A stretch of 64,000 nt of DNA from an uncultured Oligoflexia bacterium. Its GTDB lineage: Bacteria > Bdellovibrionota > Bacteriovoracia > Bacteriovoracales > Bacteriovoracaceae. Below the pieces are notes generated by a model, which was not told where the DNA came from, did not search any database, and saw nothing but the letters and a program-made list of their open reading frames with translations. The translations under genes and the position numbers were made by a program. Position 1 is the stretch's first letter. The number at the start of each line of letters is the position of its first letter. This document shows positions 2,701 to 36,182 of this stretch, in pieces. Location: contig CAJXPQ010000007.1 of NCBI GenBank assembly GCA_913058265.1, forward strand, positions 1 to 64,000, given 5' to 3'.

Positions 2701-2802
2701 ACTGATATTTTACTCTAGCCGAGCTATATGTATTAGATGGTAATTAGTTCCTATGATAAACAACACAGAGCATCCTACAAAATAACTGACCTATTCGATG
2801 TG

Positions 2803-3018: not shown

Positions 3019-3053
3019 TCATTTGTTCGCTTTTGTTCGCGCAGGAAATGATG
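3017..3053 (+). repeat. Inverted repeat beside recombinase remnant
   Basis: CATCATTT (3017-3024) and AAATGATG (3046-3053) form an 8-bp perfect inverted repeat around a 21-nt spacer holding TGTTCGCT and TGTTCGCG. No T-run follows, so it is not an intrinsic terminator. It sits between the recombinase fragment and repeat copy A and could be an old recombination or binding site. Confidence 0.4.
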
Positions 3054-3150
3054 TGTGATGAATTTTGATGAGATAAAATGAAATGAATAAACGAGGTAAG
3101 CTTTTGATTTACTTAAAAAATCTTTAATTTCAGTTGGTTAAGAAAATGTG

Positions 3151-3287
3151 TTCGGTGAGCCCTTCGCTCCCGCCATATTCGTTAAAAACCTCATCTAACC
3201 CATGAGGTTTTTTTTTGCCTAAAATCCAACAAGCCTTTGAGCTTGTTTTTTTGGATCAAGGTTTAGAAAGGTTCAAAAGTTCGTGTG
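3151..3287 (+). repeat. Composite cassette repeat, copy A
   Basis: 5' box: TTCGGTGAGCCC, TTCGCTCCCGCCA, TATTCG. Then two terminator hairpins, and the 3' box GGTTTAGAAAGGTTCAAAAG followed by TTCGTGTG. It is the most divergent 5' box of the set and the only copy with two hairpins. It lies between the recombinase remnant and the end of the beta-propeller lipoprotein gene, whose stop codon is 8 nt beyond the repeat. Confidence 0.75.
3187..3216 (+). terminator. Bidirectional intrinsic terminator in repeat copy A
   Basis: Stem AACCTCAT (3187-3194) / ATGAGGTT (3202-3209), then a run of nine T. Five A precede/overlap the 5' stem, so it can also work on the minus strand, where it would end transcripts of the lipoprotein gene at 3295-4416. 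A second hairpin, AACAAGC (3228-3234) / GCTTGTT (3241-3247) with a T-run, follows within the same repeat. Confidence 0.75.
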
Positions 3288-3294
3288 CTTTAAC

Positions 3295-4416: not shown

Positions 4417-4511
4417 CTTTATATAATAACACGTCAATTGAATGAAGCAATGTTGTAGGATGGTGGGTGATCAGGGCTCAAAATATCAGCTATTTAGGTG
4501 AGGTATCAAGA

Positions 4512-4635
4512 GGTTCAAGTGGAGCCGCTCCCGCCATTTTCGAACCCTTTTTGAGGTGTTAGATTACCGAGATTACGAAGCTTTTGCTTCGTTTTTTTGT
4601 TTCTGGGGCTTAAAAAGGTTCAAGAGTTCGTGTGG
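4512..4635 (+). repeat. Composite cassette repeat, copy B
   Basis: The best-preserved copy. 5' box: GGTTCAAGTGGAGCC then GCTCCCGCCATTTTCGAACC (4512-4546). Within it GGTTCAAGTGG (4512-4522) can pair with CCATTTTCGAACC (4534-4546) with a 2-nt bulge. Middle: GATTACCGAGATTACGAAGC plus a terminator. 3' box: GGGGCTTAAAAAGGTTCAAG and AGTTCGTGTGG. The octamer GGTTCAAG occurs at both ends (4512-4519, 4617-4624). Confidence 0.8.
4575..4598 (+). terminator. Intrinsic terminator in repeat copy B
   Basis: Stem ACGAAGC (4575-4581) / GCTTCGT (4586-4592), TTTT loop, then seven T. Copy D carries the same hairpin. Confidence 0.75.
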
Positions 4636-4796
4636 TAATTCAGTAAGGCAAATTCAATTACATTTTTAAATTTTTTATTCGGCTCAATTTTGAGTTCGCT
4701 AGTCCATAGAGACTGCAGAATTGAGTGTCCTGGTAACTTATTCTAAACCATTGAATCTTAAAGCTTTCACGTGATCTAGTTTAGGCCATTTTAAAT

Positions 4797-5756
4797 TTGT
4801 TCCGACAAGTTTCTTACATGGGAAACAAATTAAATAAGTTTATTCAAACGATTCTTACCTATTTTTATTATTTCAAACAGGCGATAGATGAGATTATGTC
4901 TTATTATATATCCCCTATTTTTATAGTTATAATTTTAAAAAAGTTTGCACTGGCCAATAGAAAACTAAGAATTATATGGGCACCGATTTCTCCAGGAAGG
5001 CCACCTCTAGATCAAAAAATCGTTGATTTGATTATTCAATTGAAAGAACTTAATCCAAAATGGGGAGCACTAAGAATTTCACTTGAACTGAGAAAGGTTC
5101 GAATCCAAGTTAGTAAACCAACGGTTTTAAAATACCTTGAGATTAATGGACTAATGTCACCACCAAAACCAGGTGGTTTAACATGGTCTCAATTTCTGGC
5201 GAACCACAAGTTCAAAATTTCAATCGATTTTACTTGCATGATTACAACCCTAGGCCATCAGGTTTTTATATTCTCAATTATAAACTTGGACTCGCGAGAA
5301 CTGATTTGGATAAATTCAACTTATAGGCCTGACAAGTTTTGGATCACTCAACAATTCAAAAATGCGTTCTTCGACTTAGAACAATATCCAACGTTATGTA
5401 TTTGTGACCGAGATCAAATATTTTCGAATTGGTTTAGTTCTATGATGAAAGATTTTTTTGAAATAAACGTAAAGAAAACTGCATTTAAATCGCCATGGCA
5501 AAACGAAACGATTGAAAGGTTTAACCAGTCCTTAAAACATGAAGTTTTTGAATCTGTTGTTCCAATAAATTTAAATCAAATTCAAAGGGTTTGTAATGAG
5601 TACAAAATTTATTATAACGAAAACAGAACCCATCAAGGGATTAATGGAAATATTCCAGGCGTAACTCATAAAATCAATCCAAATAAAACGTCGTATTTTG
5701 ATTTAAAATCTCACTTGAATGGACTATTTAGTACTTTTGAAAACTCATATGCCTGA
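4797..5756 (+). CDS. DDE (rve-type) transposase, lone ORF
   Basis: 319 residues. Residues 66-120 form a helix-turn-helix (PGRPPLDQKIVDLIIQLKEL then NPKWGALRISLEL, SKPTVLKYL). Residues 140-290 form an integrase-core RNase H fold with the acidic triad SID144F, CICD204RD, and E240 in PWQNETIERF, and the C-terminal motif YYNENRTHQGI. This is the family of stand-alone integrase-core transposases of about 320-390 residues related to IS481/IS3; the N-terminus is somewhat short and hydrophobic. No terminal inverted repeats are evident. It lies between repeat copies B and C and looks intact. Confidence 0.85.
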   Translation: MFRQVSYMGNKLNKFIQTILTYFYYFKQAIDEIMSYYISPIFIVIILKKFALANRKLRIIWAPISPGRPPLDQKIVDLIIQLKELNPKWGALRISLELRKVRIQVSKPTVLKYLEINGLMSPPKPGGLTWSQFLANHKFKISIDFTCMITTLGHQVFIFSIINLDSRELIWINSTYRPDKFWITQQFKNAFFDLEQYPTLCICDRDQIFSNWFSSMMKDFFEINVKKTAFKSPWQNETIERFNQSLKHEVFESVVPINLNQIQRVCNEYKIYYNENRTHQGINGNIPGVTHKINPNKTSYFDLKSHLNGLFSTFENSYA

Positions 5757-5759
5757 TTT

Positions 5760-5990
5760 TCAATTATTTGCCAGGACAGCTGACCTTATTGATTCTTTGG
5801 AGGACGTTGTCTGAGCTGAAATCTGACGTAAAGAAAGCCCTTCTTCTATGTATTTCTTGTGGAGGAACTCTGCTGTTGGACGTTGCCTACCAGACTTAAA
5901 CTCAGTGATTATGGTTACATACAACTCGGAGGACAAATTTAGGAATAAGTAGCTACTAGCCCGCCATTTTCGTAAAAATTCAAATTGCAA
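5760..5990 (-). pseudogene. Helix-turn-helix fragment, recombinase/transposase-like
   Basis: 76 codons are open, but only about residues 33-76 look real (GRQRPTAEFLHKKYIEEGLS then LRQISAQTTSSKESIRSA). This resembles the DNA-binding helix-turn-helix of recombinases or homing-type proteins. The first 15 residues come from reading repeat copy C backwards, so the gene was cut at or near the repeat. It converges on the transposase with a 3-nt gap. Too short to function as a recombinase. Confidence 0.5.
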
Positions 5991-6053
5991 ACTTACAAGC
6001 CTTTGAGCTTGTTTTTTTGTTTCTGGGGTTTAAAAAGGTTCAAGAGTTCGTGT
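5959..6053 (+). repeat. Composite cassette repeat, copy C (5' box truncated)
   Basis: 5' box reduced to GCCCGCCATTTTCG. Middle differs from B and D and shares the hairpin ACAAGCCTTTGAGCTTGT with copy A. 3' box GGGGTTTAAAAAGGTTCAAG then AGTTCGTGTT is nearly identical to copy B. The GGTTCAAGTGGAG half of the 5' box is missing, which may be a deletion at this junction. Confidence 0.75.
5995..6018 (+). terminator. Intrinsic terminator in repeat copy C
   Basis: Stem ACAAGC (5995-6000) / GCTTGT (6007-6012), loop CTTTGA, then seven T. Confidence 0.7.
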
Positions 6054-6080
6054 TCAATAAAATTCAAAAAACTATGTTAT

Positions 6081-7685
6081 TTAATAATTTTTTTGAGCAA
6101 TCAAATAGAGAGCAGCTTTTAATTCGTCAAAGGATACAGGTTTTGTTAAATAATTATCCATGCCTGCATTGAAACACTTATCTAGATCTTCTTTAAGCGC
6201 ATTGGCGGTAACGGCACAGATTTTGGGACTATTATCACCATACTTATTTTTTATTATTTTAGTGGCCTCAACACCATCCATTACAGGCATCTGCACATCC
6301 ATAAAAATGATCGAGTATTCCGGAATTCCATTAATCTCACTTAAACGAAGCTCTTCTAGTGCTTCTTCTCCATCGAGAACAAATTTGCAATTATTATAAC
6401 CAAGCTTTGCTAGCATCATTTTTATAACTAATTGGTTTACAGAGTTATCCTCTGCCACCAGTATTCTTATTGGAAACCTCTTGCCAAGTTCGCTATCTTT
6501 AGATGCAAGAATATTTTGCTGCGAAGTTTTTTTCGAGGTACTTTGCTTTGCCATTTCTAAATTGAAACTAATCGTAAAAGAAGTTCCAATTTTGACATCA
6601 CTTTCAAGTTTTACCTCCCCTCCCATTCTCTCAACTAGTTTTTTAACTATAACTAAGCCAAGACCAGTACCACCAAATTTTCTAGTCGTTGAGCCATCTG
6701 CTTGAGAAAATGCCCTAAATAAGCTCGCTTGGCTCTCTTCAGATATGCCGATGCCCGTATCCTTAACTACAACTTTAACAATATTATCCTTAAGCAATGA
6801 AAGACTTACGTCAACTCCGCCTTTATGAGTAAATTTAATAGCATTTGAAATGATATTTGACATCACTTGAGCGACCCTTGTCGGATCTCCAATATACATT
6901 TTGTGAAATGAATCATCATAATTTAATCTTAAATATATTCCTCTTGTGTCTGCTTCGTGTTGAAAAAGGTGAAGGACATTCATTATATTTTCAATTAAGT
7001 TAAATTCCAATTCTTCAAAAGTCACTTTATCCGCATCTATCTTTGAGAAATCTAAAATATCATTTATGACTCTCAAGAGGTTCTCTCCTGAGCTACTAAC
7101 AACCCTAAGCAATTCTAGTTGCTTAGGATCAAGTTCTGTATCTTGCATTAATTCAATCATACCAAGAATACCATTTAGAGGGGTTCTAACTTCGTGCGAC
7201 ATATTTGCTAAGAACTGAGACTTTGCTGCATTTGATTTATTCGCTATCTCTTGCTCTTTTTCTGCTTTCAGCTTTTTTAATTCTAAGCGATGGATCTTCT
7301 CTTTCGAAGAAGTAAGAACCTCTTTGAATATTAATGTATCAGTTATTACACATGCTGGATGAGACATATATTTACCCATCTTATATTTTTGTATTTCTTC
7401 TATTTTATTAAATGCGGGCCATACTAGGAAAACAAAAGATTCCTTTATTTCGTGAATCGTTCCTCTAAATTTAAAATCTATTCCTTTGAAGTAGCATAGA
7501 ATTAGTTTACCATCTAATTGCGAAAACTGAGAGTCAACTTCATTTGTTCGAGGCTGCTTGATATTCAATATATCGCGCATTAATACTCCAACAGTTAAAT
7601 ATTCCTGGAAAAAAAAAGAACTCTCAATTAGCTTGAAGGAGCTATCAAATTTAAGCCAAAATGGTGAAAGTGAATCAAGCTTCAT
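6081..7685 (-). CDS. H-NOX-associated hybrid histidine kinase/response regulator
   Basis: 534 residues from the ATG at 7685. This start follows the stop of the H-NOX gene after 1 nt and has AAGGTG upstream; a longer start at 7730 would overlap that gene. Residues 1-110 resemble the HNOBA domain that usually couples H-NOX to its effector (LSPFWLKFD…[11 protein letters not shown]…[20 protein letters not shown]). A coiled coil (128-150) leads to HisKA with His164 ([11 protein letters not shown]), the HATPase N-box (270-285), G1 (KDTGIGIS, 309-315) and G2 (GGTGLGL, 338-344), then a receiver domain with Asp463 ([11 protein letters not shown]). No membrane segment. Expected role: cytoplasmic phosphorelay controlled by heme-bound NO or O2. 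The next phosphotransfer partner is not in the window. Confidence 0.9.
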
Positions 7686-7686
7686 A

Positions 7687-8226
7687 TTAGAATTGCACCT
7701 TAAACCTTGCCTTATCTGTGCCTGGATCATCTAAAATTTCAACATTACAAATCGCATTAAATAGTTTAAAAATTCCTTTAAGTAATCCGACAACAAAAAA
7801 CTCCAAAGGCATGTCACGTGAACTATTATAGTGAACTATTACTTCTTGATTAGATACTCTCGTCGTATGAAAAGAAGGTGGATTTAGATCATCAAATGTA
7901 AGCTCAAGCCGAGTGTGCAAAGAATCAAGAGAATTTATGAGGTCTAGAGGATTTTCTCCAAATGAAATGAGAATTGTTTTATATTCAGAATTCATTGCAA
8001 ACTTTATCCAATACTCTCCAAATGACTCTAGTAATTCGGGTGCTTCAATATCTAATTTTTCACAGATAGATCCAACTAAGTCGAGGGTAACTTGATCACT
8101 ATGTTGCTCAAAAGAGTCAAAGTCACTTGAACTGATATCGAGGGAAGTACAAATATCATCCCAAGTCTCCTCATTAACTGTTTCGATAACCATCATTTTA
8201 ATAGCCTGATTCACCATTCCATACAT
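7687..8226 (-). CDS. H-NOX heme-nitric oxide/oxygen sensor
   Basis: 179 residues, normal family length. It starts with MYGMVNQAI, typical of H-NOX. The proximal heme ligand is His104 in [10 protein letters not shown], followed by the NPPSF segment and the invariant heme-propionate motif YxSxR (Tyr133, Ser135, Arg137 in [14 protein letters not shown]). These features are diagnostic for a b-type heme gas sensor. AAGGAG stands 8 nt before the ATG. It is the first gene of a two-gene operon with the hybrid kinase immediately downstream, the classic H-NOX/kinase arrangement. The pair fills the whole segment between repeat copies C and D. Confidence 0.93.
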
Positions 8227-8400
8227 AAAAAGTACTCCTTCGTTTATATGTGACTTATCGTATGAACGGAAAAATAATTAAGATCTTCCCCAAAAAGGCA
8301 TGAACAGCCTAACTATTATTGTCGGTTTTCATCTGATTTAGTAGCATGTTTGGTGATTTGAGCTTCCTTTTATCGGGTACCTAAGGAAGATTTCAAAAGC

Positions 8401-8516
8401 TTCAAGTGGAGCCGCTCCCGCCATTTTCGAACTCTTTTTAGGGCGATAGATTACCGAGATTACGAAGCTTTTGCTTCGTTTTTTTGTTTTAGGGGTTTAA
8501 AAAGGTTCACAAGTTC
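8401..8516 (+). repeat. Composite cassette repeat, copy D
   Basis: 5' box TTCAAGTGGAGCC then GCTCCCGCCATTTTCGAAC is identical to copy B except at the first bases. Middle GATTACCGAGATTACGAAGC and its hairpin also match copy B. 3' box is GGGGTTTAAAAAGGTTCAC then AAGTTC. It lies upstream of the H-NOX start on one side and 15 nt before the P-loop kinase start on the other. Confidence 0.8.
8462..8485 (+). terminator. Intrinsic terminator in repeat copy D
   Basis: Stem ACGAAGC (8462-8468) / GCTTCGT (8473-8479), TTTT loop, then seven T. Confidence 0.7.
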
Positions 8517-8531
8517 AACTATCATACATTC

Positions 8532-9065
8532 ATGAAAAGAATTGTAGTCATAGGATCTAGTTCAAGTGGAAAGACAACACTTGGAAAAGCTCTATCTAAA
8601 AAATTTAATATAGAACATAAAGAGTTAGATTTGTTCTTTTGGGAGCCTAACTGGACTCAAGCTGAGGATAAAAGTTTTAGAAAACGTGTTGATCCATTTA
8701 CTGCACAAGAAACTTGGATTACAGATGGTAACTTTAGTCAGGTTAGAGATCTAGTCTGGGGTCGAGCAACAACAGTTATATGGCCAGACTATCCTTTTCA
8801 TATAATCATTAAGTAATTTTTTAAAAGGTCATTGATACGCTCATTCAAAAAGGAAGAGCTATGGAGTGGAAACAAAGAAACACTCTGGAATAGTATTCTA
8901 AAGCCTGACTCTTTACTTGTATGGATATTAAAAACTTACAAGAGAAATAAGATACGATACTCTACCCTAATTGATTCTGAAGAATTTCCAAACATCAAAT
9001 TTTTAAGACTAAAGAATCCAAGAGAAACAAAAATATTTTCAGATAGTTTCGAAAATAGAAACTGA
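8532..9065 (+). pseudogene. P-loop kinase (adenylate kinase-like, AAA_18 type), nonsense mutation
   Basis: One reading frame of 177 codons is interrupted by TAA at 8814-8816. The first part has Walker A GSSSSGKTT (residues 8-16), the DLFFWEPNW acceptor region and WITDGNFSQVRDL, as in small kinases often annotated as 'topology modulation' or adenylate kinase-like proteins. After the stop the same frame continues with FFKRSLIRSFKKEELWSGN and LRLKNPRETKIF, which is the normal continuation of the family (lid and C-terminal helices). A single base change therefore splits the gene. The 94-residue product would lack the lid. It starts just after repeat copy D. Confidence 0.8.
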
Positions 9066-9121
9066 TAACGAAGCAAACAATACTTCAATAATGAATCTAT
9101 ATGTGAATTTACGGTTTAATT

Positions 9122-9170
9122 ATTAAGACGATTCGCTCTCTACGACATCTTACGAAATAACGATGTCAAG
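9122..9170 (+). repeat. Copy 2 of the ~48-bp dispersed repeat
   Basis: Counterpart of 64-112, with core CTACGACATCTTACGAA at 9140-9156. It sits in the 228-bp gap between the broken kinase and the convergent coiled-coil gene. Directly after it GTCAAGCC occurs twice. No gene was seen in this gap. Confidence 0.45.
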
Positions 9171-9293
9171 CCTCTCAACGAGGTCAAGCCATAGCTTATA
9201 TGTGTTTTCTTCTAATTTAGATGGCTTAATATAATAGATGAATAAGGGACGAATAGTCACACCTGTTATTTTTGAATTCTCTATAGTAATTCT

Positions 9294-10094
9294 CTATTCC
9301 TTTAATTTCCATTGGCCTTTTTCATCTTGGCAAACATCTATGTCTTTCAAAAACTTCATTGTTTTCTTTTGACTGATTTTAACTTTCAAAGATCTACACC
9401 TTTCTTCTTTTTTAATTTTTACTAGATGAATACTGCCACTATTTTTTGAAGTAGGATTGTCCCAATATTCTACTACCTTGATTTGCTCTGCCACCAAAAG
9501 CTTTAAGGTAGCTTCCTTAAGAAGCCTGTTGTCTGTTCTTGTGAGTTTTATATCATTTTCATGAATAAAGCCTGATACGAGGTCAAAGGGCAGTGTTAAT
9601 AAACCTGTAACAAAGCCTGATAAAACTCCTTTACTAGATTCCTTACCAAGGTTTTTTCCTTTATCCATTATATCTTCAACTCTATCGAGATGCTTCGGAA
9701 TATTATGCTCCATCTGTACAATCCGAGAGATTTCTTTTGAAATATTTGGCAACTCTTTAGTAACTTTATTTATAGATAAACGAACATTATCGATAGATTT
9801 ATGAATCTCAGGAAGCGCCATTCTTGTTTCTTTAAATTCCTTTAAAACCGTAGGGATAATATTTCGAGTTTTTTCAACCTGCTCAAGAATATTTGGTAGA
9901 AGCTTCCGTACCTCCCTAAACTCGGATAAAATTTCACTTACAACTAATTCTTTGCCTGTTACACTTTTATTCAGTTCAGGATTTAAAACTCTTCTTAGGC
10001 TTCTGATTTCAAGTGAAAAAAAAACAATTGCCATAGAAAGTGAAAAAAGACTAAAAGCAATAAAGTATGATGGTAAGTTTTTTTTAAAATTCAT
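9294..10094 (-). CDS. Membrane-anchored coiled-coil protein
   Basis: 266 residues. One N-terminal membrane segment (residues 10-28, SYFIAFSLFSLSMAIVFF). Then a long heptad-rich helix (50-155) with repeating 'VRKLLPNILEQ', 'RNIIPTVLKEF', 'RMALPEIHKS' and 'TKELPNISKE' units, each with a central proline about every 20-25 residues. The C-terminal domain (195-266) has a WDNPTSKNSGS motif and Cys pairs (ERCRSL, DVCQDEKGQW) resembling the C-terminal domain of RT0821/Lpp0805-type surface antigens; that match is tentative. Probably a periplasmic protein tethered to the inner membrane. Function unknown. Confidence 0.7.
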   Translation of the reverse strand: MNFKKNLPSYFIAFSLFSLSMAIVFFSLEIRSLRRVLNPELNKSVTGKELVVSEILSEFREVRKLLPNILEQVEKTRNIIPTVLKEFKETRMALPEIHKSIDNVRLSINKVTKELPNISKEISRIVQMEHNIPKHLDRVEDIMDKGKNLGKESSKGVLSGFVTGLLTLPFDLVSGFIHENDIKLTRTDNRLLKEATLKLLVAEQIKVVEYWDNPTSKNSGSIHLVKIKKEERCRSLKVKISQKKTMKFLKDIDVCQDEKGQWKLKE

Positions 10095-10128
10095 TTTTAT
10101 AACTCTATAGGCTTTGGTTTTTAACTAC

Positions 10129-10176
10129 GAACAAAAAAAGAAAAAGAGTGAAAATTTAAACATAATTTTTCACTCT
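10129..10176 (-). terminator. Minus-strand hairpin with T-run upstream of 9294-10094
   Basis: AGAGTGAAAA (10145-10154) and TTTTCACTCT (10167-10176) form a 10-bp stem. On the minus strand it is followed by a T-rich run (TTTTTCTTTTTTT), so it reads as an intrinsic terminator. It lies about 35 nt before the start of the coiled-coil gene, in the divergent gap 10095-10349, and could be a leader attenuator or the end of a small RNA. Confidence 0.5.
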
Positions 10177-10300
10177 AGTTATATCATATGTTAACACAAC
10201 TAACAAATTGACAACGCTCGTACAAAAACCATATTTAATGCATGCGTCATCGCTTAAAAAAGTACATTAAACCATATTATTCAGTTTATTTTTTTCCTAC

Positions 10301-10328
10301 TTGTCACATATTTTTTATCATATATAGT
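10301..10328 (+). promoter_or_regulatory. Candidate promoter of the amidohydrolase gene
   Basis: TTGTCA (10301-10306) and TATAGT (10323-10328) are 16 nt apart, close to a sigma70-type promoter. AAAGGA follows 8 nt before the ATG at 10350. Read by eye only. Confidence 0.4.
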
Positions 10329-10349
10329 TTTAAAATAAAGGACTAATAT

Positions 10350-12080
10350 ATGAAAAACTTACACTCTCTTATGAAGAAAATACCTATTCTTTTCCTATTA
10401 CTAAATATTGGCTGTAACACGAATCAACCTAGAAATGCTGCTACAATTATTTATACTAATGGAAACTTCATTACTATTAATGATAAAGCTCCAAAAGCTA
10501 AGGCTGTCGCCGTTAGAAATGGAAAGATTCTTGATGTTAGTCTTGATCAAGAATCAATAATCAAAAACTTCAAGGCGCAGGAAACTAAAATTATAAACCT
10601 TAGAGGAAACACTGTAATCCCCGGAATAATTGACGCCCACAGTCATCTAACAACCGTAGCTGTTCAAGCAGTTTCTGCTAACTTACTTCCACCTCCCGAT
10701 GGTGGAGCAAAAGATATTCCGACTCTTCAAAATATACTAAGAAGGTTTATAAAAGAATCACCAACGATAAAAGAATATGGCATTGCGATTGGTTTTAACT
10801 ACGATGATTCTCAACTAGCAGAGAAACGTCATCCTACTAGGCAAGAACTAGATCAAGTCTCAACTAAGATTCCAATAGTTATTATGCACCAGTCGGGTCA
10901 CCTAGGAGTATATAATTCACTAGCTCTTAAACAAGCTGGAATAAATGAAAATACTCCAAACCCTCCAGGTGGAACATTTTATAGAGAAGATGATGGAAAA
11001 AAACCTAATGGCGTTATGGCTGAGAATGCTCACTTCATGGCTATATACAAACTTATTCCAAAATACAGTGATGAGCAATTACAAGACATGATTATAAAAG
11101 CAGAACATATATATTTAAAAAATGGTGTTACAACAATCCAAGATGGTAGGGCAGATCCCAATGGCATAAACTCGCTTATTTATACAGCTAAAAATAAAGG
11201 CTTCAAAGCTGATATTGTTGCTTATGCAGATCTTGAAATGAATTTAAATAATAAAATTCTGAAAGGTCCCTTTATGGCGAAGGAATATACTAAGCGATTT
11301 CGAATTGGCGGTGTTAAGTTATCGCTAGATGGATCACCACAAGGCAAAACAGCTTGGTTTACAAAACCCTATATTGTTCCTCCTCATAACGAGAAGATTG
11401 GATACAAAGGTTTTCCGATTTTTAAAGATACTCAAAAATTACAAAACCTAGTTGAGGTTGCACAAGAAAATGAATGGAAGCTCCTGGCTCACGGAAATGG
11501 AGATGCAGCCATAGATCAATTAATTGAAGTTATTGCCAAGGTAAATCAGAATAAAATGAAACCTAATATCGATTCTGTTTTAATACATGGTCAATTTATG
11601 AGAAAAGATCAGATCCCGAGACTAAAAGAATTAAATATTTTTCCATCTGTGTATCCGATGCATACATTTTATTGGGGTGACTGGCACCGCTCCTCAGTGG
11701 CTGGAGAAGAAAGAGCAAGTTTCTCATCTCCTACAGCATCAATTCTAAAAGCAGGTATGAAGTTTTCTATCCATACTGATGCACCAGTTATTTTTCCTGA
11801 TTCAGCTCGCCTTCTTCACAGTGCTGTCAATAGAGTAACTAGAAGTGGTTATATTTTAGGCCCTAACGAAAGAATAAGTCCCTTAACTGCCTTGAAAGCA
11901 TTAACTATTTGGCCCGCTATTCAATACTCCGAAAACTCTTTAAAAGGATCGATTGAAAAAGGGAAGCTTGCAGACTTTGCAGTTTTATCGCACAACCCAT
12001 TAAGCATTCCTGTTGAGGATTTAATAAAAATAAAAGTGCTCAAAACAATTAAAGAAGGTAAAATAATTTATGAAAAATAG
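10350..12080 (+). CDS. Amidohydrolase family 3 (YtcJ-like) lipoprotein
   Basis: 576 residues. Lipoprotein-like signal (…KIPILFLLLNIGC) with Cys at about residue 23. Then the amidohydrolase beta-sandwich (IIYTNGNFITINDKAPKAKA) and TIM barrel with metal-binding GIIDAHSHL (about residue 95), HQSGHLGVYNS, LLAHGNGDAAIDQ, LIHGQF and HTDAPV. These are the metal and substrate positions of YtcJ-type metal-dependent hydrolases, which cleave amide or related bonds in small molecules; the substrate cannot be read from sequence. Length and domain order are normal for the family. Lipidation would put it in the periplasm. It stands alone between divergent and unrelated neighbours inside the cassette-like region. 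Confidence 0.88.
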   Translation: MKNLHSLMKKIPILFLLLNIGCNTNQPRNAATIIYTNGNFITINDKAPKAKAVAVRNGKILDVSLDQESIIKNFKAQETKIINLRGNTVIPGIIDAHSHLTTVAVQAVSANLLPPPDGGAKDIPTLQNILRRFIKESPTIKEYGIAIGFNYDDSQLAEKRHPTRQELDQVSTKIPIVIMHQSGHLGVYNSLALKQAGINENTPNPPGGTFYREDDGKKPNGVMAENAHFMAIYKLIPKYSDEQLQDMIIKAEHIYLKNGVTTIQDGRADPNGINSLIYTAKNKGFKADIVAYADLEMNLNNKILKGPFMAKEYTKRFRIGGVKLSLDGSPQGKTAWFTKPYIVPPHNEKIGYKGFPIFKDTQKLQNLVEVAQENEWKLLAHGNGDAAIDQLIEVIAKVNQNKMKPNIDSVLIHGQFMRKDQIPRLKELNIFPSVYPMHTFYWGDWHRSSVAGEERASFSSPTASILKAGMKFSIHTDAPVIFPDSARLLHSAVNRVTRSGYILGPNERISPLTALKALTIWPAIQYSENSLKGSIEKGKLADFAVLSHNPLSIPVEDLIKIKVLKTIKEGKIIYEK

Positions 12081-28088: not shown

Positions 28089-31000
28089 TTAGAACCAACG
28101 CTTTACCATTCGAATATTATGGGCCGTATGTGAGGTAACATAAAGGTTTCCATCAGCATCGAAGGCAATTCCCCACGGAGCTGATAGAGAGGAAGAGGAA
28201 GCATTTACGCCCTCTTCTTCATTATAATGAGGGGTAGCAGCCTTTACTGTTGAAGCTGATATCTTACCAACTCTTAAAGTTGTAAGTCCTGAGTTTCTAT
28301 TTACACAAATAACATTATGGGGATACTGGTGTCCATTTGCATTTGCACCTTGAGTATAACAAATTTGGTCACCAAAGCTTGCCACTCCACCAGAGTAGCC
28401 TTCGGTTGATATAATCTTTCCGACCTCACCTGCTGGTATCGTAACACCACCAAATATCGTGACATCACTAGCAGATACGTTTACATACTTAATATATGAA
28501 TTGGTTGTAATCCATTTATCGACCATAAAGAAGTTTCCACTTGGTCCATGAACTGCATCGGAATCGACAGAAAAATCACCTGGGTTTTGAAATTTGGCAC
28601 TTGCAAGTGCTCCCATAATGTCTCCATTAAGTTTACATTGCCCAACAGTTTCAGAAAGAACGCCTGACGCATCAACACCCATAATACAGTGAATACTTCT
28701 ATCCCCAATATACATTTTTGATTGGTCAGAGTTCGCTGCGATCCCTACAGGATATTGAAGTCTAGCTAAAGTTGCCTGAGTATTATTATAAGTAGCACTA
28801 TTCCAAGTATTACAACCTAGAGTATAGTTTCCTGCGACATCATTAACCTTGGCTGCAGGGATCGCCTGGTTAAAAAGTGTTTGAGTTGAAGCTGTTCTAT
28901 TAAAAATTCTCGCCTGACAATTTCTATTTGTTCCATTACCTCCGCGATAATCAGTATAAAAAAGATATGAAGAGTCGTTACTTGCAAATAGATCTCCAAC
29001 GTTTCTAAAATAAATATCGTTTGGATCTTCTGTTTGTGAATCAGCATTTCCAGCAGCGCCACGACCTATTAGGGTCGTAATACTACCAGTTGTTAAATCC
29101 ATTTTTCGAATTCTCATATTACCATGATCATTGAATATCATAGCATTCTCAGTAGCTGAAAACTCCATTGCCCTTGGATAGCTTAGATATCTCTTATTGG
29201 CCTGTTTTGGGTTTTCATCATCATAATCTGTAACCTTTAAATTCCCAACAAGATCATCAGATAATCCATTAGCTATTGAGACATCAAATGTTGCAATTTT
29301 TCCGTTTGTTCTATCGGCAACATATAAAGTATTTCCTGAAATCATAATTCCAAGAGGGCTATATAATAAAGTATTTGTAGACGCCGGCTCACCGCGAGAG
29401 TAATCCGCGGTATTATACTTACCGTAAACATAGTTATTGTAACCCGCACTAGTCGTTCTTCCGCCAAGTGTGATATCTGCTGCGGATGTATTCAATAAAC
29501 CAATATAATGTCTCGTAGTGTTGGTATAGAAGATACCTTTTGTAACTCCAGCTACCGAGTATGTTTCAAGATCATAGGGTCTTAACTTAGCTCCATTATT
29601 TGACCATATTTTTGTAAAACTCTCTCCAGCTCCGTTTCCTTTAGACAACATCATAAGATTGTTAGCGCCAAGAACAACTGCTCCGTTATGAAAAGTTGCA
29701 GCATCACCATAACTAATGGCAGAGATTCTATATTTAGTAAAGTCACCAACATATACAATACGATCATTAGGATCTAATGTTAATGAATACGATCGTCCTA
29801 TCCTTGCAGATCCTGCATATGAGGTTGTCCCCTCAGTAACGTTATTAGTATAACGAACTAAAGTATAACCTTGATCTGCACCTGTTAAAAAGTACTTAAC
29901 TGATCCATCAGCTCCATTGGTATTTCCATAGCAAGCAACAAAGACTTTCCCCTCGGTTTCATCTATATCAAGACCAACTGGGTAGTTACATTTATGAGAC
30001 TTTCTTGCGACCCCATCAGTATTGCTAGAACTTTTTCCGGCCCAACGATATCCTTGACCACTTGAATTGAACCTAACAACTTGATGATTTCGATAATCTG
30101 CTACATATAAAGCATCTTCAGTTGCTGAGTAAGCAAGATCTTTAGGTTCATAAAGATAATAATTATTATATGATTGTCCATCAGTACCAAGACCTAAATT
30201 TGTTTGACCAAAAAGACTTACAACAGTGTTGGCAGCAATAGATTTCCCCAATATAGTAAGAGCGCCAGCTGTATCGTTATAAAACCAGACACTATGCCTT
30301 AAACTATCAGAAAAAAAGTATCCTCCCGATGGATGCTTTTCTATATAGTCCGCTCTTATTCTTAATTCAGAGTCACTATCTGTTAATCCAGATCCCATCC
30401 CTACAAGACCAGCAACAGTACAAACCTCGCCTGCAGCTAAATTATTACAAGTATCTGAGAAATAATTTACAGAAATATCCCATTCAATTTCTTGAGTTTC
30501 AAAGCCATCACTTATAATCGCCTTTATTGTATGATCTCCGATTAGAGCTGCCTGGCAATTTGGAGAAAATGTTGCATCAGTTGTCATCGGATGAACGCCT
30601 AAATTTGTTGTATTTGTAAGCGCTGCATTTGAACCACCATCAAATAGCCACGTGACAGTATGACTTTGTCCATCCGCCCAGTTAGCATCGGACACAGTTA
30701 ACTGAAAATTCTTACTTGAAGCACAGTTCATTTTAATCACAGAAGCATTGCTTGGTGTTTGAAAAGATATTTGTGGTTTTTGATTAATAGTGACATTAAA
30801 ATCATGAGAGTCTGATGTTGCAAGAGAATCAGTAACAGTAGCAGTTAACACGTAGTTACCTGGAGTAAAGTCCCCTCCTCCAACATTACAATTTGTTAAA
30901 TCATTACAAGCAGCGATTGTACTACCTGGATTTATATCCCATGCATAACTCAAAGGCGGGTTTCCACTTGCAGAAACTATAAAGCTCTTTGTTTCTGTAC

Positions 31001-31754
31001 TTAAAATAACAACAGGATTAGATGTTGGTGAGTATGAGTCTATGCTGGTTACATTTGGATTTGTAACTGTAACCGCCATTGTATATTCACTAAACTCACC
31101 TTGAGAATCTGTGACTCTAATAGTGACATTATTATTTCCGGCCAAAGAACAATTGGGCGTAAAAACTGTACTAGCTGAACTCAGACCTGTACTTGTAGCT
31201 AAGAATGCACTTCCCACAGCTCCATTGAGATAGAACCCATAAGTTAAACTATCTCCGTCGGTATCTGAGGCCGTAATATCTAATTGAAATGAATCCGCCA
31301 CACAGCTTATTGTTTGTGATGTATTTGAATCTAGATTAACAGTTGGAGGTGTATTTTTTCTTACGTTAAATGTATGTGAATCACTTCCGACAGAATTGGT
31401 TGCAACAACTTCTAGACTATGAAGTCCAGCAGCAACTCCAACTGCTGATAAATTATAAAATGGAGAAGTGGAATCTTGTAATAATGAACCATCAAGTTTA
31501 AATGTATAGTTCACATCACCAGCACCGCTATTTACTTGAACTGCAAATGTCTGACTAGAACTCGTAATTAGAATGACTGGGTCTGTTAATGGAGAGACGC
31601 TAATAATCTCTACCGCCTCATCTGCTGCCTCTGAATTACCAGAGGTCTCAACAGTATCCTCTAGCTTTTTAAAGCCATCATTTCCTTCTTCAGTACAAGA
31701 TACTGCGAAGATACCAATAAATATTATAGTAAATATTAATTTCATCTTAACCAT
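28089..31754 (-). CDS. Giant lipoprotein with Ig-like domains and NHL-type propeller
   Basis: 1221 residues. Lipobox in MKLIFTIIFIGIFAVSC. The start at 31754 has AGGAC 5 nt upstream. Residues about 50-430 are a string of Ig/PKD-like beta domains ('ITASDTDGDSLTYGFYL', 'VTVTNPNVTSIDSYSPTSNP', with paired Cys such as SCVADS…PNCSL and ACNDLTNCN). Residues about 440-1221 form NHL-type propeller blades (DALYVADYRNHQVVRFNSSG, LDPNDRIVYVGDFTKYRI, GNTLYVADRTNGKIATFD, IAFDADGNLYVTSHTAHNIR). Such proteins are typically surface-exposed, binding sugars or proteins. Likely an adhesin or cell-surface scaffold. Monocistronic. Confidence 0.85.
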   Translation of the reverse strand: MVKMKLIFTIIFIGIFAVSCTEEGNDGFKKLEDTVETSGNSEAADEAVEIISVSPLTDPVILITSSSQTFAVQVNSGAGDVNYTFKLDGSLLQDSTSPFYNLSAVGVAAGLHSLEVVATNSVGSDSHTFNVRKNTPPTVNLDSNTSQTISCVADSFQLDITASDTDGDSLTYGFYLNGAVGSAFLATSTGLSSASTVFTPNCSLAGNNNVTIRVTDSQGEFSEYTMAVTVTNPNVTSIDSYSPTSNPVVILSTETKSFIVSASGNPPLSYAWDINPGSTIAACNDLTNCNVGGGDFTPGNYVLTATVTDSLATSDSHDFNVTINQKPQISFQTPSNASVIKMNCASSKNFQLTVSDANWADGQSHTVTWLFDGGSNAALTNTTNLGVHPMTTDATFSPNCQAALIGDHTIKAIISDGFETQEIEWDISVNYFSDTCNNLAAGEVCTVAGLVGMGSGLTDSDSELRIRADYIEKHPSGGYFFSDSLRHSVWFYNDTAGALTILGKSIAANTVVSLFGQTNLGLGTDGQSYNNYYLYEPKDLAYSATEDALYVADYRNHQVVRFNSSGQGYRWAGKSSSNTDGVARKSHKCNYPVGLDIDETEGKVFVACYGNTNGADGSVKYFLTGADQGYTLVRYTNNVTEGTTSYAGSARIGRSYSLTLDPNDRIVYVGDFTKYRISAISYGDAATFHNGAVVLGANNLMMLSKGNGAGESFTKIWSNNGAKLRPYDLETYSVAGVTKGIFYTNTTRHYIGLLNTSAADITLGGRTTSAGYNNYVYGKYNTADYSRGEPASTNTLLYSPLGIMISGNTLYVADRTNGKIATFDVSIANGLSDDLVGNLKVTDYDDENPKQANKRYLSYPRAMEFSATENAMIFNDHGNMRIRKMDLTTGSITTLIGRGAAGNADSQTEDPNDIYFRNVGDLFASNDSSYLFYTDYRGGNGTNRNCQARIFNRTASTQTLFNQAIPAAKVNDVAGNYTLGCNTWNSATYNNTQATLARLQYPVGIAANSDQSKMYIGDRSIHCIMGVDASGVLSETVGQCKLNGDIMGALASAKFQNPGDFSVDSDAVHGPSGNFFMVDKWITTNSYIKYVNVSASDVTIFGGVTIPAGEVGKIISTEGYSGGVASFGDQICYTQGANANGHQYPHNVICVNRNSGLTTLRVGKISASTVKAATPHYNEEEGVNASSSSLSAPWGIAFDADGNLYVTSHTAHNIRMVKRWF

Positions 31755-31875: not shown

Positions 31876-32439
31876 TTAATAGTTATACATGATACCTGCA
31901 ACAGCTGTTATTTCCGTAGCTTCTCCAGCATTAGGTCCTTCAAGAAGACCGTATTGGAAGTCTGAGAAGAGAGAGATGGCCTTATTCAAGCCAAGCTCTG
32001 CGCCTCCACCAAATGAGAATCCAGAATAAGTTGCTTTAACTGACTGGTATTGACGCTGACTAAATCCGGTATAGATATAAGGATTTAGCTGTTTAATATT
32101 AAGAATTGAAATATTAGAAACTTTCGAATGAGAGACAGTATTTGATCCAAATGGATAATAACTAAAACCTATAAATGGACCAAAGGATTTATCACCTTTG
32201 TAGATTTGCTCAATTAAAACTGTGTAGCCTAAGATGAGTTCAAATTGTTCTTCTATTTTTGAATGATATTGAATTTTATAAGCTCCAATATTAGTAATAT
32301 TTGTCGCTTCATTACCAACATTAGCATCTACTGAATAGCCACCAATGCCTAAAGATAATTTATTAGCATAGGAGTTATTTGATGTTAAAAGAAATATTGA
32401 AGAACATAAAATTAGCCTAAGCAACATCATCAACACTTT
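31876..32439 (-). CDS. Outer-membrane beta-barrel protein of the motor-like operon
   Basis: 187 residues from the ATG at 32439; the ATGs at 32427 and 32424 are alternatives. Signal peptide …RLILCSSIFLLTSNNSYAN. The mature part has strand-turn patterns (LSLGIGGYSVDANVG, EEQFELILGYTVLIEQIYKG, FGPFIGFSYYPFGS, FSFGGGAELGLN) and ends in AVAGIMYNY, an aromatic outer-membrane insertion signal. Its start overlaps the end of the FliG-like gene by about 23 bp, so the two are translationally coupled. This links the inner-membrane motor components to an outer-membrane partner. Confidence 0.75.
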   Translation of the reverse strand, partial: KVLMMLLRLILCSSIFLLTSNNSYANKLSLGIGGYSVDANVGNEATNITNIGAYKIQYHSKIEEQFELILGYTVLIEQIYKGDKSFGPFIGFSYYPFGSNTVSHSKVSNISILNIKQLNPYIYTGFSQRQYQSVKATYSGFSFGGGAELGLNKAISLFSDFQYGLLEGPNAGEATEITAVAGIMYNY

Positions 32440-34120
32440 CATCAACCTGCTTGTCTTCAAGTGTTGAATCATGATTCGTTTTATTATGATTATTGAAGTT
32501 CTCGTTCACAAACTTTGAGATACTCTGCCTGATTGTCACTTTAAAGGATGTTTGTTCAGGGTTCTGATCAAGAGTTTTAAGCATATGACTAAACAAGTAC
32601 TTTTCTTTATCATCCATTAACTCTAAGACTAGATCTTTTTCAAACCTACCAATATTAAAACAGGCCACGGCCCAATCATTCATAGAAAAGCTGCTATAGA
32701 CAACTTTTCTATCTTCGAGACTAAGTTCAAAGAACTTAAAAAAAGCTGGTCTCACGCTAGATAGATCATTTTCTTCACCCATTACAGAATAAATATCTTT
32801 TTCTTCATTTGGCTCGACTGAGTCAAGGTAACTTAACAAGTCTTTTCTATTTTTAAAAATCTGCAAAGAATCATAATTAAAGTAAGGTTGAAAATTTAGT
32901 GCAGATGTAATGAGTCTTTGAACTTCATCTATATCTGAAATTTTCTCTTGCGCTCTATCTTCTAAGATACTTCCCCATGACCCTGGGAAACATTCTCGAG
33001 AGACAGGAATAGAAATATCTTTCGGTAAATGATAAAGAATTGAGAAGGCTTGCTCCTTAGTAATCGTCTTGATAAATCCGGCCATATTACTGCTTATTCT
33101 CCAAGTGTGAATAAGAAGACTTTCAAATTTCTCACTTTGATGAATAGTTCTATTGCGCAGCATACGATCTAAACTAATCATAACAACTTTACTTGGAAAA
33201 CCGACGTCTGAGAAACCTTTAAACCAATCTTCTCCTTTACCAAGCTGATAAATACTTTTTTGAACATCTTGTGGGAATTCATAGGCAAGGTAACTAAAAC
33301 TTGAAGGGTCGCTTTGCAGCAGCTCTTCTAAAATTACCATATCACTTAAAGTGGGAAACATTTCTGACTCAAGTAATTTAGATATTTTTTTACCTACTAC
33401 TTCATTTATTTTAGAAGGATCCTGAATATTTAGATCCCCTGATAAACCACCAATACTCTGTTTGGAGCCACTTGAACTTGAAGCACTCGCCGCCGCAGTC
33501 ATAACTGGTGCAGCAACAGGAGAGGAGTCTTCCCCATCTCCACTACTCTCCACTTTTTGAGGAACAATTTTTTTAGATAAAGAGTTCAATCCTATTCCAA
33601 GCACCATGGCGATAATAAGCATCGCTCCCAATAAAAGTACTTCGGTTTGCTCTTTCCAATTAAAAGCCTGTTGTAAAACAGGTGAAGTTATAGGCTCTAT
33701 AACAACAGTGTCTCTTCCTGGTACAAGATTTACATCTTGTAGCAAGGCTTCTTTAAACCTCGCTCGATTTTCTATTGAAACTTTATCTTCAATATATATA
33801 GTCACTCTTGCTTCCGTGATACGTCCATAAAGACTATAGATATTTGTTTTAGGATCATCCCATTCGTCTAAGATTAGATCATCTTGGAACTCCATAAAGG
33901 GTAAATTTTCATTCGATGAATCATAATCATATTTTCGACGTAAAGGCTTAACCTTAACCTGGACTGAATATTTTGTATTTGGAGAAAATTTCTCTAAGAA
34001 GCTTGAGATATCTCCTTTTATCTTTTCCTGGACTTCAATAACTCTCGCATTATTTGCAAAGACATAACTTGAATTAAAGAGAAATGAAAACCATAGTATA
34101 AATTTAATGAATAATTTCAT
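32417..34120 (-). CDS. FliF/FliG-like envelope motor protein
   Basis: 567 residues. Signal peptide MKLFIKFILWFSFLFNSSYV-FAN. Periplasmic part 24-165 includes EARVTIYIEDKVSIENRARF-KEALLQDV-NLVPGRDTVVIEP, which reads like the ring-building domains of FliF/YscJ. One membrane segment (about 173-195, EVLLLGAMLIIAMVLGIGLN). Then a low-complexity linker (200-245) and a helical cytoplasmic part (250-540) with FliG-like repeats such as DMVILEELLQSDPSSFSYLA-YEFPQDVQ and the later helical repeats ending KEKYLFSHMLKTLDQNPEQ. The fold assignment is inference by pattern, not by search. It is encoded with MotA and MotB. The start overlaps the MotB stop by 4 nt. Confidence 0.6.
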   Translation of the reverse strand: MKLFIKFILWFSFLFNSSYVFANNARVIEVQEKIKGDISSFLEKFSPNTKYSVQVKVKPLRRKYDYDSSNENLPFMEFQDDLILDEWDDPKTNIYSLYGRITEARVTIYIEDKVSIENRARFKEALLQDVNLVPGRDTVVIEPITSPVLQQAFNWKEQTEVLLLGAMLIIAMVLGIGLNSLSKKIVPQKVESSGDGEDSSPVAAPVMTAAASASSSSGSKQSIGGLSGDLNIQDPSKINEVVGKKISKLLESEMFPTLSDMVILEELLQSDPSSFSYLAYEFPQDVQKSIYQLGKGEDWFKGFSDVGFPSKVVMISLDRMLRNRTIHQSEKFESLLIHTWRISSNMAGFIKTITKEQAFSILYHLPKDISIPVSRECFPGSWGSILEDRAQEKISDIDEVQRLITSALNFQPYFNYDSLQIFKNRKDLLSYLDSVEPNEEKDIYSVMGEENDLSSVRPAFFKFFELSLEDRKVVYSSFSMNDWAVACFNIGRFEKDLVLELMDDKEKYLFSHMLKTLDQNPEQTSFKVTIRQSISKFVNENFNNHNKTNHDSTLEDKQVDESVDDVA

Positions 34121-34806
34121 GATGCATCCTCGCGATACAATATAAGAGCAATTGTTCTAGACATTTTTTCCATTTCTTTTATATCCTCTGTTTTTAAACC
34201 TAGAAGGCTTAATGCCTTTTCAGACATGATACCCTTTCCACCTATTTCAACTCTGTTTAGTGGTATGCCCGTTGCTTGAAGATATCTCATGACAGAGATA
34301 GATCTCAGAGCACTGAGTTCGACATTATCCTTAAAGCGTCTACTTGAATTTGACACTGGTCTATTATCTGTAAAAGCTTGTATTTTAATTCTAAATTTTC
34401 CAGCAAATGGAACAAATTTTTCTGTAAATTTTGAAAGTAGTACTTGTCCAAACTCATTAACAGCTGTTGCACCTGAATCGAAGAAGTTGGCTCCCTTAAA
34501 GAAAACTACCAACTTACCATTGTTCTCTTTTTGAATAACTGTTGAGATTTCATTTAAATCGTCAATACTAATTGATTCATTCTCTGATATTCCCACTTTT
34601 GAATGAGTAAAATTATCCATCGTCGCTATGTTCTTAATCGCGTTCTCTTCAAGTTTCTTTTCTTTTTCATCAACAAAATCAAAAGAGAAGAACATGACAA
34701 AGAAACTTAATAAAAGAGTGATCATATCTCCATAACTAATGGCCCAAGACCCATCAGTATCAGTATCGTGAATATCAATCTTTTTAATTTTTACTTTTCT
34801 TTTCAT
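34117..34806 (-). CDS. MotB-type stator protein
   Basis: 229 residues. Short cytoplasmic tail, then one membrane segment with the proton-binding Asp27 in SWAISYGDMITLLLSFFVMF, the MotB signature. The periplasmic part ends in an OmpA-type peptidoglycan-binding domain (FFKGANFFDSGATAVNEFG, KIQAFTDNRPVS, NVELSALRSISVMRYLQATG, VEIGGKGI). It should pair with MotA to make an ion-conducting stator anchored to the cell wall. It starts 1 nt after the motA stop and overlaps the next gene by 4 nt. Confidence 0.93.
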   Translation of the reverse strand: MKRKVKIKKIDIHDTDTDGSWAISYGDMITLLLSFFVMFFSFDFVDEKEKKLEENAIKNIATMDNFTHSKVGISENESISIDDLNEISTVIQKENNGKLVVFFKGANFFDSGATAVNEFGQVLLSKFTEKFVPFAGKFRIKIQAFTDNRPVSNSSRRFKDNVELSALRSISVMRYLQATGIPLNRVEIGGKGIMSEKALSLLGLKTEDIKEMEKMSRTIALILYREDAS

Positions 34807-34807
34807 A

Positions 34808-35581
34808 TTAAGATGCCTCTAATGCTCCATAATCAAAACTAAGTTTTTTATATTGATTCGGAACATAGTTATTCATATGCTCCATTGCCTCGACATAATT
34901 TGTTCTGTCACTGATCATCAAAATTGTATTCAAAGATATCTCTGCTAAATTTTGATCCTCTTTAGTATTACTCATAATTCTATCGCCAATTGGATTTACA
35001 CATATATTGGCGACTACGATTCCATAGAAAGTTGCAATAAGCGCAACTGCCATTCTAAGACCTGTCTCTTTTGGATCGGCTCCCTCACTTAGACCCTTCA
35101 TTAAATGTACTAGTCCTAAAACGGTACCAGCAAGTCCAAATGCAGGAGGATACTTTGAAAGACTTCTTATCCATTGACCAACAGTTACACTATCGTCAGT
35201 ATATTTTTCTATTCGATCCATTAAAATATCTCTAATTTTATCTGTAGAGAAACCTAACCTTAGGAGTTCAAAGCCATCAACTAAGATTTTTTGATCTATT
35301 CTTTTCGCCTTTCCATTAGGAACATTACCTTGCATTAGATAGAGAGAGTTTTGTATACAATCTTCTCTCAATCCGTGGTTCCCGCTAACTCCTCTTAATA
35401 TAATACTGAGAGAGTGTTTGATTTTTAATGAAGGTAAAGTCATAATACTTACCGCCAAAGTACCACATACAACCATGGCAAAAGCGATGAGATCCCAGAA
35501 TTGTGTAATACTTTGATCTAAATGATCAAGGGATACGTAAAATCCAGCCGTAATGATAATAAAACCAATTAAGATTTTCAT
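34808..35581 (-). CDS. MotA-type stator protein
   Basis: 257 residues, normal MotA length. Four membrane segments, about 4-24, 30-50, 150-172 and 180-200. The signature YPPAFGLAGTVLGLVHLM (including the functional Pro) and TGLRMAVALIATFYGIVVAN match the MotA/TolQ/ExbB pore region. The cytoplasmic loop between the second and third segments carries the charged stretch that contacts a rotor (DGFELLRLGFSTDKIRDILM). Second gene of a five-gene operon that contains no chemotaxis or other flagellar gene. Confidence 0.93.
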   Translation of the reverse strand: MKILIGFIIITAGFYVSLDHLDQSITQFWDLIAFAMVVCGTLAVSIMTLPSLKIKHSLSIILRGVSGNHGLREDCIQNSLYLMQGNVPNGKAKRIDQKILVDGFELLRLGFSTDKIRDILMDRIEKYTDDSVTVGQWIRSLSKYPPAFGLAGTVLGLVHLMKGLSEGADPKETGLRMAVALIATFYGIVVANICVNPIGDRIMSNTKEDQNLAEISLNTILMISDRTNYVEAMEHMNNYVPNQYKKLSFDYGALEAS

Positions 35582-35582
35582 A

Positions 35583-36182
35583 CTATATGTCTCCTGATGA
35601 CGCTGTACCTCTTTTCAACTTATTTATGAGGTAGTCACGCTGGGAATTTCCGGGTGATATACCTTTAGCTTTTTCATAAAAGTATAAGGCCTTATTAGTA
35701 TCGTTTGATAAGTAATAGATATTTGCAAGTAAATCGTACGGAACACTTACATCAGGATAGTTATCTACAAGCTTTAAAAGTATCTCTTCAGAACGTTTAT
35801 AATTTTTGTTAAAACTATACTTCTGAGCCTCTGCTATTTTACTTGAAAGCCTCTCAAGCTTCTGATTAGATATAATTTCTTTAGCGCTATTAGCTTCTTC
35901 CATTCGTGTGGTTAGCTTTACACTACTCCTAAGAGCGGGCTTAGTGATATAAACGATCTCCTGTCTATATCCTGTTTTGGAAAATATAAGTTTCACTGCG
36001 CCGTCTTTAAAGAAAACACTATCCATACCTACCGATAAAGGTGTCGCTCCTAGCTTAGTGATCTGCCCATCGCTCTCTACAACACTTACATCTACCTTCG
36101 CGGGATAGGATTGAAAGTCGAGCTTGCCGTGACCACAACTAGTGATTAAAAATAGTGCTAAAATAATGTTTAAAATATTCAT
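35583..36182 (-). CDS. PEGA/TPR lipoprotein of the motor-like operon
   Basis: 199 residues. Lipoprotein signal MNILNIILALFLITSC. Residues 25-90 look like a PEGA domain (SYPAKVDVSVVESDGQITKL, GATPLSVGMDSVFF, LIFSKTGYRQEIVYI), a small surface beta domain. Residues 105-190 are TPR-like (AQKYSFNKNYKRSEEILLKL-VDNYPDVSVPYDLLANIYYL). First gene of the operon, with motA starting 1 nt after its stop. It could be an outer-membrane or periplasmic adaptor for the stator complex. Confidence 0.8.
   Translation of the reverse strand: MNILNIILALFLITSCGHGKLDFQSYPAKVDVSVVESDGQITKLGATPLSVGMDSVFFKDGAVKLIFSKTGYRQEIVYITKPALRSSVKLTTRMEEANSAKEIISNQKLERLSSKIAEAQKYSFNKNYKRSEEILLKLVDNYPDVSVPYDLLANIYYLSNDTNKALYFYEKAKGISPGNSQRDYLINKLKRGTASSGDI

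Follow-up and report, generated by a model that had tools for sequence, protein, structure and literature searches.

What does a pair of flagellar-type stator genes drive when its partners are envelope proteins? We address this question for a block of minus-strand genes from an uncultured Oligoflexia bacterium of the family Bacteriovoracaceae, within the window analysed here, a stretch of 64,000 nucleotides (nt) comprising positions 1 to 64,000 of contig CAJXPQ010000007.1 (assembly GCA_913058265.1). An original prediction had read five genes at 31876..36182 as a non-flagellar envelope motor whose fourth protein carries FliF-like and FliG-like parts in one chain. That protein, here called FG, is a FliF(RBM3)-TM-FliG protein, combining the third ring-building motif (RBM3) of FliF, one transmembrane (TM) helix and a FliG-like part. 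Its gene is linked to a MotA/MotB stator pair and to outer-envelope partners across the phylum Bdellovibrionota, including two genomes in which no flagellar genes were detected. We place the probability at about 0.72 that this module is a stand-alone ion-driven rotary envelope motor with a MotAB stator, a one-protein FliF-FliG rotor ring and an outer-membrane load.

The five minus-strand open reading frames (ORFs) were all found at the positions and with the spacing predicted. Genes 1 and 2 (MotA) are separated by 1 nt, as are MotA and MotB, MotB overlaps FG by 4 nt, and FG overlaps gene 5 by 56 nt, or by 26 nt with the start at ATG 32442. The predicted extent holds for these five genes, but the conserved unit reaches 28089 and includes a sixth. 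Similarly, the claim that no flagellar gene lies nearby holds for the ORFs of the window as read, but not for the contig, which carries a flagellar fliF/fliG cluster (G000:C7, about 106–112 kb) ~75 kb away. Here and below, G000 denotes the host genome itself, other G numbers the sampled genomes, and L numbers the loci compared.

FG as a FliF(RBM3)-TM-FliG protein

FG (gene 4; 32417..34120, minus strand; 567 amino acids, aa) is the candidate rotor and ring of the module. Its AlphaFold2 (AF2) model, built from a 22-row alignment with a predicted local distance difference test score (pLDDT) of 77, displays a periplasmic alpha-beta-(insert)-beta-alpha-beta fold, a membrane helix, a disordered linker and an all-helical region at residues 235–548. 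The periplasmic RBM3-like domain, delimited by the model and by hhalign, follows an N-terminal signal peptide and spans residues 27–143 (33692..34042, minus strand). The membrane helix at residues 155–182 (33575..33658, minus strand) includes the sole strong hydrophobic window of the protein, which starts at residue 161. Profile matches and hhalign place the FliG-like cytoplasmic part at residues 235–548 (32477..33418, minus strand), with a FliG_C-like section at 461–535.

Foldseek comparison of this model with 350,542 PDB chains ranked FliG at the top (3hjl, 3ajc, 3usw, 1lkv; 1qc7 with TMt 0.79), with full-length FliG followed by FliG fragments and the RBM3/collar of FliF, and EscJ also among the matches. 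The first 23 matches were exclusively FliG, FliF or flagellar C-ring chains. From this ranking, the two halves of FG match two different rotor proteins. The structure prediction thus yielded the FliG and FliF ring-building folds that the original prediction had expected from 32417..34120.

Sequence profiles gave the same result. A 54-member FG profile searched against PDB sequences returned FliG in all of its top six positions (3.6e-5, 1.1e-4, 4.5e-4, 4.8e-4, 0.032, and 0.065), and FliG_C was the top Pfam family for FG, matched by 24 of the 54 members (best 1.2e-6). With the phylum-wide FG alignment and 60 column shuffles per half as controls, hhalign scored the N-terminal half against FliF RBM3 at 37.5 (shuffle maximum 20.0) and the cytoplasmic half against FliG at 34.6 (shuffle maximum 20.3), while the swapped pairings scored 13.9 and 18.3. 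The narrow 22-member alignment gave P 0.2 against FliG. The alignment of FG with FliF takes in the two parts of RBM3 and the collar insert that separates them, in agreement with the layout resolved by cryo-electron microscopy, alpha1/beta1/beta6/alpha2/beta7 with the beta-collar inserted (PMC11481574).

Diverged FG proteins encoded in similar operons pass the Pfam cut-offs for FliG_C/FliG_M and once for FliG_N (L223, L225, L227, L228, L234). The FG of L228 matches FliG_N (1.6e-7), FliG_M (1e-6) and FliG_C (2.5e-11), and that of L234 matches FliG_C at 1.6e-13. In a blind search of 369 phylum genomes, the FG profile also retrieved flagellar fliG beside fliF, for example in G281:C14 (E 1.3e-5). 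At the residue level, FG K505 aligns with R281 of Escherichia coli FliG and is K or R in 49 of 50 members; the equivalent of FliG D288 is E in 28 of the 50. Because the model fold, the sequence profiles, the hhalign scores and the diverged Pfam-passing members agree, FG is a FliF(RBM3)-TM-FliG protein, as had been proposed.

FG also departs from both of its flagellar counterparts. Its signal peptide is followed by a single RBM3-like domain and one membrane helix, with no RBM1, RBM2 or TM1, and the FliM-binding EHPQR motif is absent at the aligned place. Single-sequence scans of FG against Pfam and NCBIfam gave nothing useful, so that family alignments were needed, and a contig search with the single FG protein found no match. 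The FG alignment holds no stretch conserved enough for contig scanning, and the MotA alignment served for this purpose.

A conserved block of stator, candidate rotor and outer-envelope genes

Gene 2 (34808..35581, minus strand) encodes a MotA-like stator subunit of 257 aa (PF01618, E 4.7e-19), and gene 3 (34117..34806, minus strand) a MotB-like subunit of 229 aa with MotB_plug (1e-11) and OmpA (4.2e-9) matches. The residues that correspond to P173 and P222 of E. coli MotA are invariant in 22 sequences. MotB Asp27 (codon 34726..34728, minus strand), singled out by the original prediction, is invariant in 21 and, judging from Asp32 of E. coli MotB, presumably binds the ion in the channel. The pair thus has the channel prolines and aspartate, the plug and the OmpA-like domain of a flagellar stator. 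The host genome encodes a separate MotA/MotB pair at L072. In a quick FastTree phylogeny, read by grouping without support values and with some tips from loci not checked for a complete module, the module MotAs, diverged ones included, form a group that includes neither the L072 MotA nor E. coli MotA. Another MotAB-like pair was noticed at G000:C2:264479-266140 (L074:6480-8141), where a MotA/ExbB-like protein and a protein with an OmpA-like end follow downstream of an FHA-like ORF.

Among 129 sampled genomes, FG was found in 22 other genomes of the order at 28–54% identity, one copy being cut at a contig end. Phylum-wide neighbourhoods contained all five genes in 38 of 42 loci, with the same order and strand in 36; the fourth and fifth genes are therefore kept with motAB, as expected of a conserved block, and conservation of the block is far beyond chance. 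Exceptions were contig ends, one artefact of ORF start (L058) and one split locus. In the latter (L050 in G128, 2098-10617), the lipoprotein, barrel and large lipoprotein genes lie on one strand and MotA-MotB-FG on the other; the lipoprotein and barrel genes are ~4 kb from the rest and the whole module falls within about 9 kb. At one further locus (L059 in G082, 7725-8335), the module MotB appears in two overlapping frames, possibly a frameshift or pseudogene in this draft genome.

A close version of the module occurs in about 70 of the 369 phylum genomes. The phylum-wide profile A5 matched 117 genomes at 1e-3, a figure that is not a module count because true flagellar FliG genes, along with some chemotaxis receptors, are among the matches. 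L235 and L236 were rejected as modules since their FG-profile matches are such receptors. Strongly diverged or reshuffled versions (L086, L177, L186, L175, L218-L234, L237) keep the parts of the module but arrange them differently, for example LIPO-FG-OMP-MotA-MotB in L218-L220, where the outer-membrane protein (OMP) is assigned by position and appearance. The presence of more than one match in some genomes (G192, G201, G344) suggests that the motor module is a superfamily with subtypes. The L218 version was matched in 7 of 24 genomes of a Bdellovibrio-like genus (five strong, two weak); at the sensitivity of this search the other 17 yielded no module, and three genomes from the genus of the host lack it.

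The remaining genes encode outer-envelope proteins. Gene 1 (35583..36182, minus strand; 199 aa), the first of the block in most relatives, had been predicted as a PEGA/TPR lipoprotein, and a family scan of 30 relatives bears this out (PEGA in 14, TPR_2 in 28), with lipobox Cys16, Gly45, and Pro48 invariant. Gene 5 (31876..32472, minus strand) is an outer-membrane beta-barrel, as proposed, with 8 strands; it has a signal peptide, OMP_b-brl is matched in 21 of 42 relatives, and its AF2 model (pLDDT 94) adopts an OmpX/OmpA/NspA-like fold. The product of gene 6 (28089..31754, minus strand) is a lipoprotein of 1221 aa that carries Ig/PKD-like domains, an NHL beta-propeller (2.2e-18) and an AVSC lipobox read off the sequence. 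The gene was the sole conserved flanking gene in a neighbour survey, at 35 loci, and 36 of 42 fetched stretches have a homologue next to the block. It mostly lies no more than tens of nt from the barrel gene, or else adjoins the lipoprotein gene, at times on the opposite strand. In the window, 121 nt without a terminator-like site separate genes 5 and 6. We regard gene 6 as a candidate for a surface protein that the motor would move or display. Several diverged modules have a nearby protein of 850–1350 aa with Fn3 or TIG domains, and once with FG-GAP propeller repeats, as a possible counterpart of gene 6; the large neighbour at L230 had no Pfam match.

Two other features of the window were noted by eye. 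An H-NOX-like (gas-sensing) protein of 179 aa precedes a hybrid histidine kinase at 6081-8226, with overlapping genes, and an IS3-type integrase-like ORF at 4797-5756 may belong to an insertion sequence.

A probable motor apart from the flagellum, and the rival readings

In the mechanism we propose, MotA and MotB would form a stator anchored on peptidoglycan through the OmpA-like domain of MotB, and ions passing MotB Asp27 would drive the MotA ring. FG may oligomerise through its RBM3-like domain and single helix into an inner-membrane ring that presents FliG-like torque domains to MotA, so that rotor and MS-ring would be one protein without a FliM/FliN switch. Placing rotor and ring in one chain appears workable, since artificial fusions of FliF to FliG still assemble and rotate in Salmonella (PMC4768692). 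The PEGA/TPR lipoprotein and the small barrel would then pass the motion on to the outer membrane, and together with the large lipoprotein they are the likely load. With its partners in the outer membrane, the motor probably rotates or pulls a structure at the cell surface. The large Ig and beta-propeller lipoprotein may be what is moved or displayed, and it would most likely serve as an adhesin when the cell moves over a surface or attaches to it.

That the machine is independent is supported most strongly by two draft genomes, G249 (97% complete) and G064 (91%), in which FliF_C, Flagellin_N, FliMN_C and Flg_bb_rod were not found while control genomes matched. G249 holds the complete five-gene block (L232), and in G064 the module (L061) is present with FG cut by the contig end. 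Because these genomes carry the module without detectable flagellar genes, it can exist apart from the flagellum, and the description of the motor as non-flagellar is supported. The absence of FliM/FliN from the two carriers and of EHPQR from FG further suggests that the module has no CheY-controlled switch.

Several observations weigh against a stand-alone rotary motor. The FG model has a predicted template modelling score (pTM) of only 0.50, and all of its Foldseek matches lie above 1e-3 (E 0.009 and up). At the stator-rotor interface, MotA E98 has no counterpart, the MotA R90 equivalent is R or K in just 14 of 22 sequences and N in the window protein, FliG K264 is lost in FG, and D288/D289 are kept only in part; as these residues are not fully kept, the torque contact is probably altered or different. 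No rod-like part was found that would carry force across the peptidoglycan to the outer membrane. Other than G249 and G064, moreover, nearly all module-bearing genomes are flagellated (flagellin and FliF), and of the 33 genomes without flagellin just two have the module, so that its presence may be linked to a flagellated way of life.

Another reading is an energised system for envelope transport or maintenance, in which FG and MotAB, in the manner of Tol-Pal or TonB-ExbBD, would use ion flow to pull on the outer membrane or to bring the large lipoprotein to the surface, with no ring rotating continuously against a track. The two lipoproteins and the barrel, the lack of a rod and the membership of MotA in the MotA/TolQ/ExbB family are all in keeping with such a system. 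We consider it unlikely, since FG has FliG-like torque and FliF-like ring-building domains rather than Tol or Ton parts, and MotB has a plug and an OmpA domain as in flagellar stators, unlike generic transporters (PMC12505986).

Rather improbable, too, is an accessory flagellar system, with MotAB as an extra stator and FG as an auxiliary ring that modifies an ordinary flagellum. The host genome has flagellar genes elsewhere (FliF, FliG, FliH, FliI, FliM/N, rod/hook and flagellins), nearly all carriers of the module have flagellin and FliF, and Bdellovibrio bacteriovorus HD100 has three motAB pairs (PMC11323537). However, the module is present in G249 and G064, where FliF, FliM/FliN, rod/hook and flagellin were not found, and it is missing from most of the phylum's flagellated genomes. 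FG itself has none of RBM1/RBM2, TM1 and EHPQR, its partners are outer-membrane proteins, and the host's flagellar MotA (L072) falls outside the group of module MotAs.

An export basal body, with FG as the ring of a secretion-type apparatus that MotAB just energises or opens, is very improbable: the RBM fold does occur in EscJ-type injectisome rings (EscJ being in the Foldseek list of FG) and in SpoIIIAG (PMC4768692), but the conserved block has no export gate or ATPase gene, gene 6 is its sole conserved neighbour, and FliG homology with MotAB points to torque.

Three additional FliG_C proteins are encoded in the host genome outside the flagellar cluster, at G000:C2:284641-285102 (L063:8642-9103), G000:C6:3874-4299 (L065) and G000:C10:56531-57628 (L064:6532-7629). 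Two are about 140–150 aa and extend barely beyond FliG_C, and one, of 365 aa, may have a PilZ-like N-terminal part. FliG_C ORFs of ~150 aa likewise occur in other genomes of the phylum.

Known motors and a possible role at the cell surface

Compared with the flagellar motor, the module shares the channel prolines, aspartate, plug and OmpA domain of MotA/MotB, homology to the FliG C-terminal fold that is evident in structure, profiles and Pfam, and the FliF RBM3 fold with its insert followed by a membrane helix. Unlike that motor, it has rotor and ring in one chain, lacks RBM1/RBM2, TM1 and EHPQR, and includes an outer-membrane barrel and lipoproteins; the neighbour survey found no FliM/FliN switch, rod, hook or filament gene in the conserved block, which has no export gate either. 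The module would work in the manner of a flagellar rotor and stator, but on FliF architecture, switch, rod, hook and filament it is not a flagellar motor. To our knowledge, stators coupled to a FliG-type rotor have been described only in flagella. The module would be a new form of MotAB-FliG motor, possibly a new class of machine. We found no description of the operon in the literature searched, which left out most subscription journals.

A natural fusion comparable to FG is known from Chlamydiaceae, in which a shortened FliF and a FliG-like part form one protein that does not belong to a working flagellum (PMC4768692). That fusion has RBM2 similarity, no RBM3-like (SpoIIIAG-like) domain, a FliG_M match and no stator genes (PMC4768692), whereas FG matches RBM3 with its insert and FliG M/C and is always accompanied by MotAB, barrel and lipoproteins. 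On these grounds, FG was not assigned to the Chlamydiaceae type.

The Agl-Glt machinery of Myxococcus, the cited model for Bdellovibrio gliding, likewise spans the envelope, is powered by ions through MotA/TolQ-family proteins and has partners in the outer membrane, but it has no FliG/FliF-like rotor protein. Agl B subunits lack plug and OmpA features (PMC12505986), and the presence of both in the module MotB argues against an Agl-type pair. The type IX secretion system (T9SS) motor GldLM of Bacteroidota resembles the proposed machine as a rotary envelope motor moving a surface adhesin, but has no FliG/FliF homology and is described as non-homologous to MotAB (PMC13104615). Zorya (ZorAB) is a MotAB-related membrane motor outside flagella, again with no rotor of FliG/FliF type; the module also differs in having no ZorC, ZorD or ZorE and in having envelope proteins as partners. 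An assignment to Zorya was rejected, as a PADLOC scan of the five proteins gave generic ZorB (MotB) similarity only.

A 2026 review describes the machinery for Bdellovibrio gliding as unidentified and names the search for its motor, adhesins and force transmission a major open challenge (PMC13104615). For this reason, our best guess is that the module acts in surface movement or adhesion, and a gliding or adhesin role is plausible. It cannot simply be the Bdellovibrio gliding motor, because 17 of the 24 Bdellovibrio-like genomes gave no match. The prey-entry role raised by the original prediction is not favoured, given these genomes and the three of the host's own genus that lack the module, and the same absences led us to reject a core predation tool. 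More tentatively, at somewhat less than even odds, we hypothesize that a class of rotary nanomachine not described before is widespread in Bdellovibrionota, and that its MotAB-driven FliF-FliG rotor, a single protein, moves a large outer-membrane lipoprotein adhesin for flagellum-independent surface motility or attachment. A minimal motor that unites rotor and membrane ring in one chain and exists without a flagellum would bear on the evolution of such motors and on the smallest size of a rotor. For the Bdellovibrio phylum, the six-gene block offers testable candidates for the stator, rotor, outer-membrane and adhesin components.

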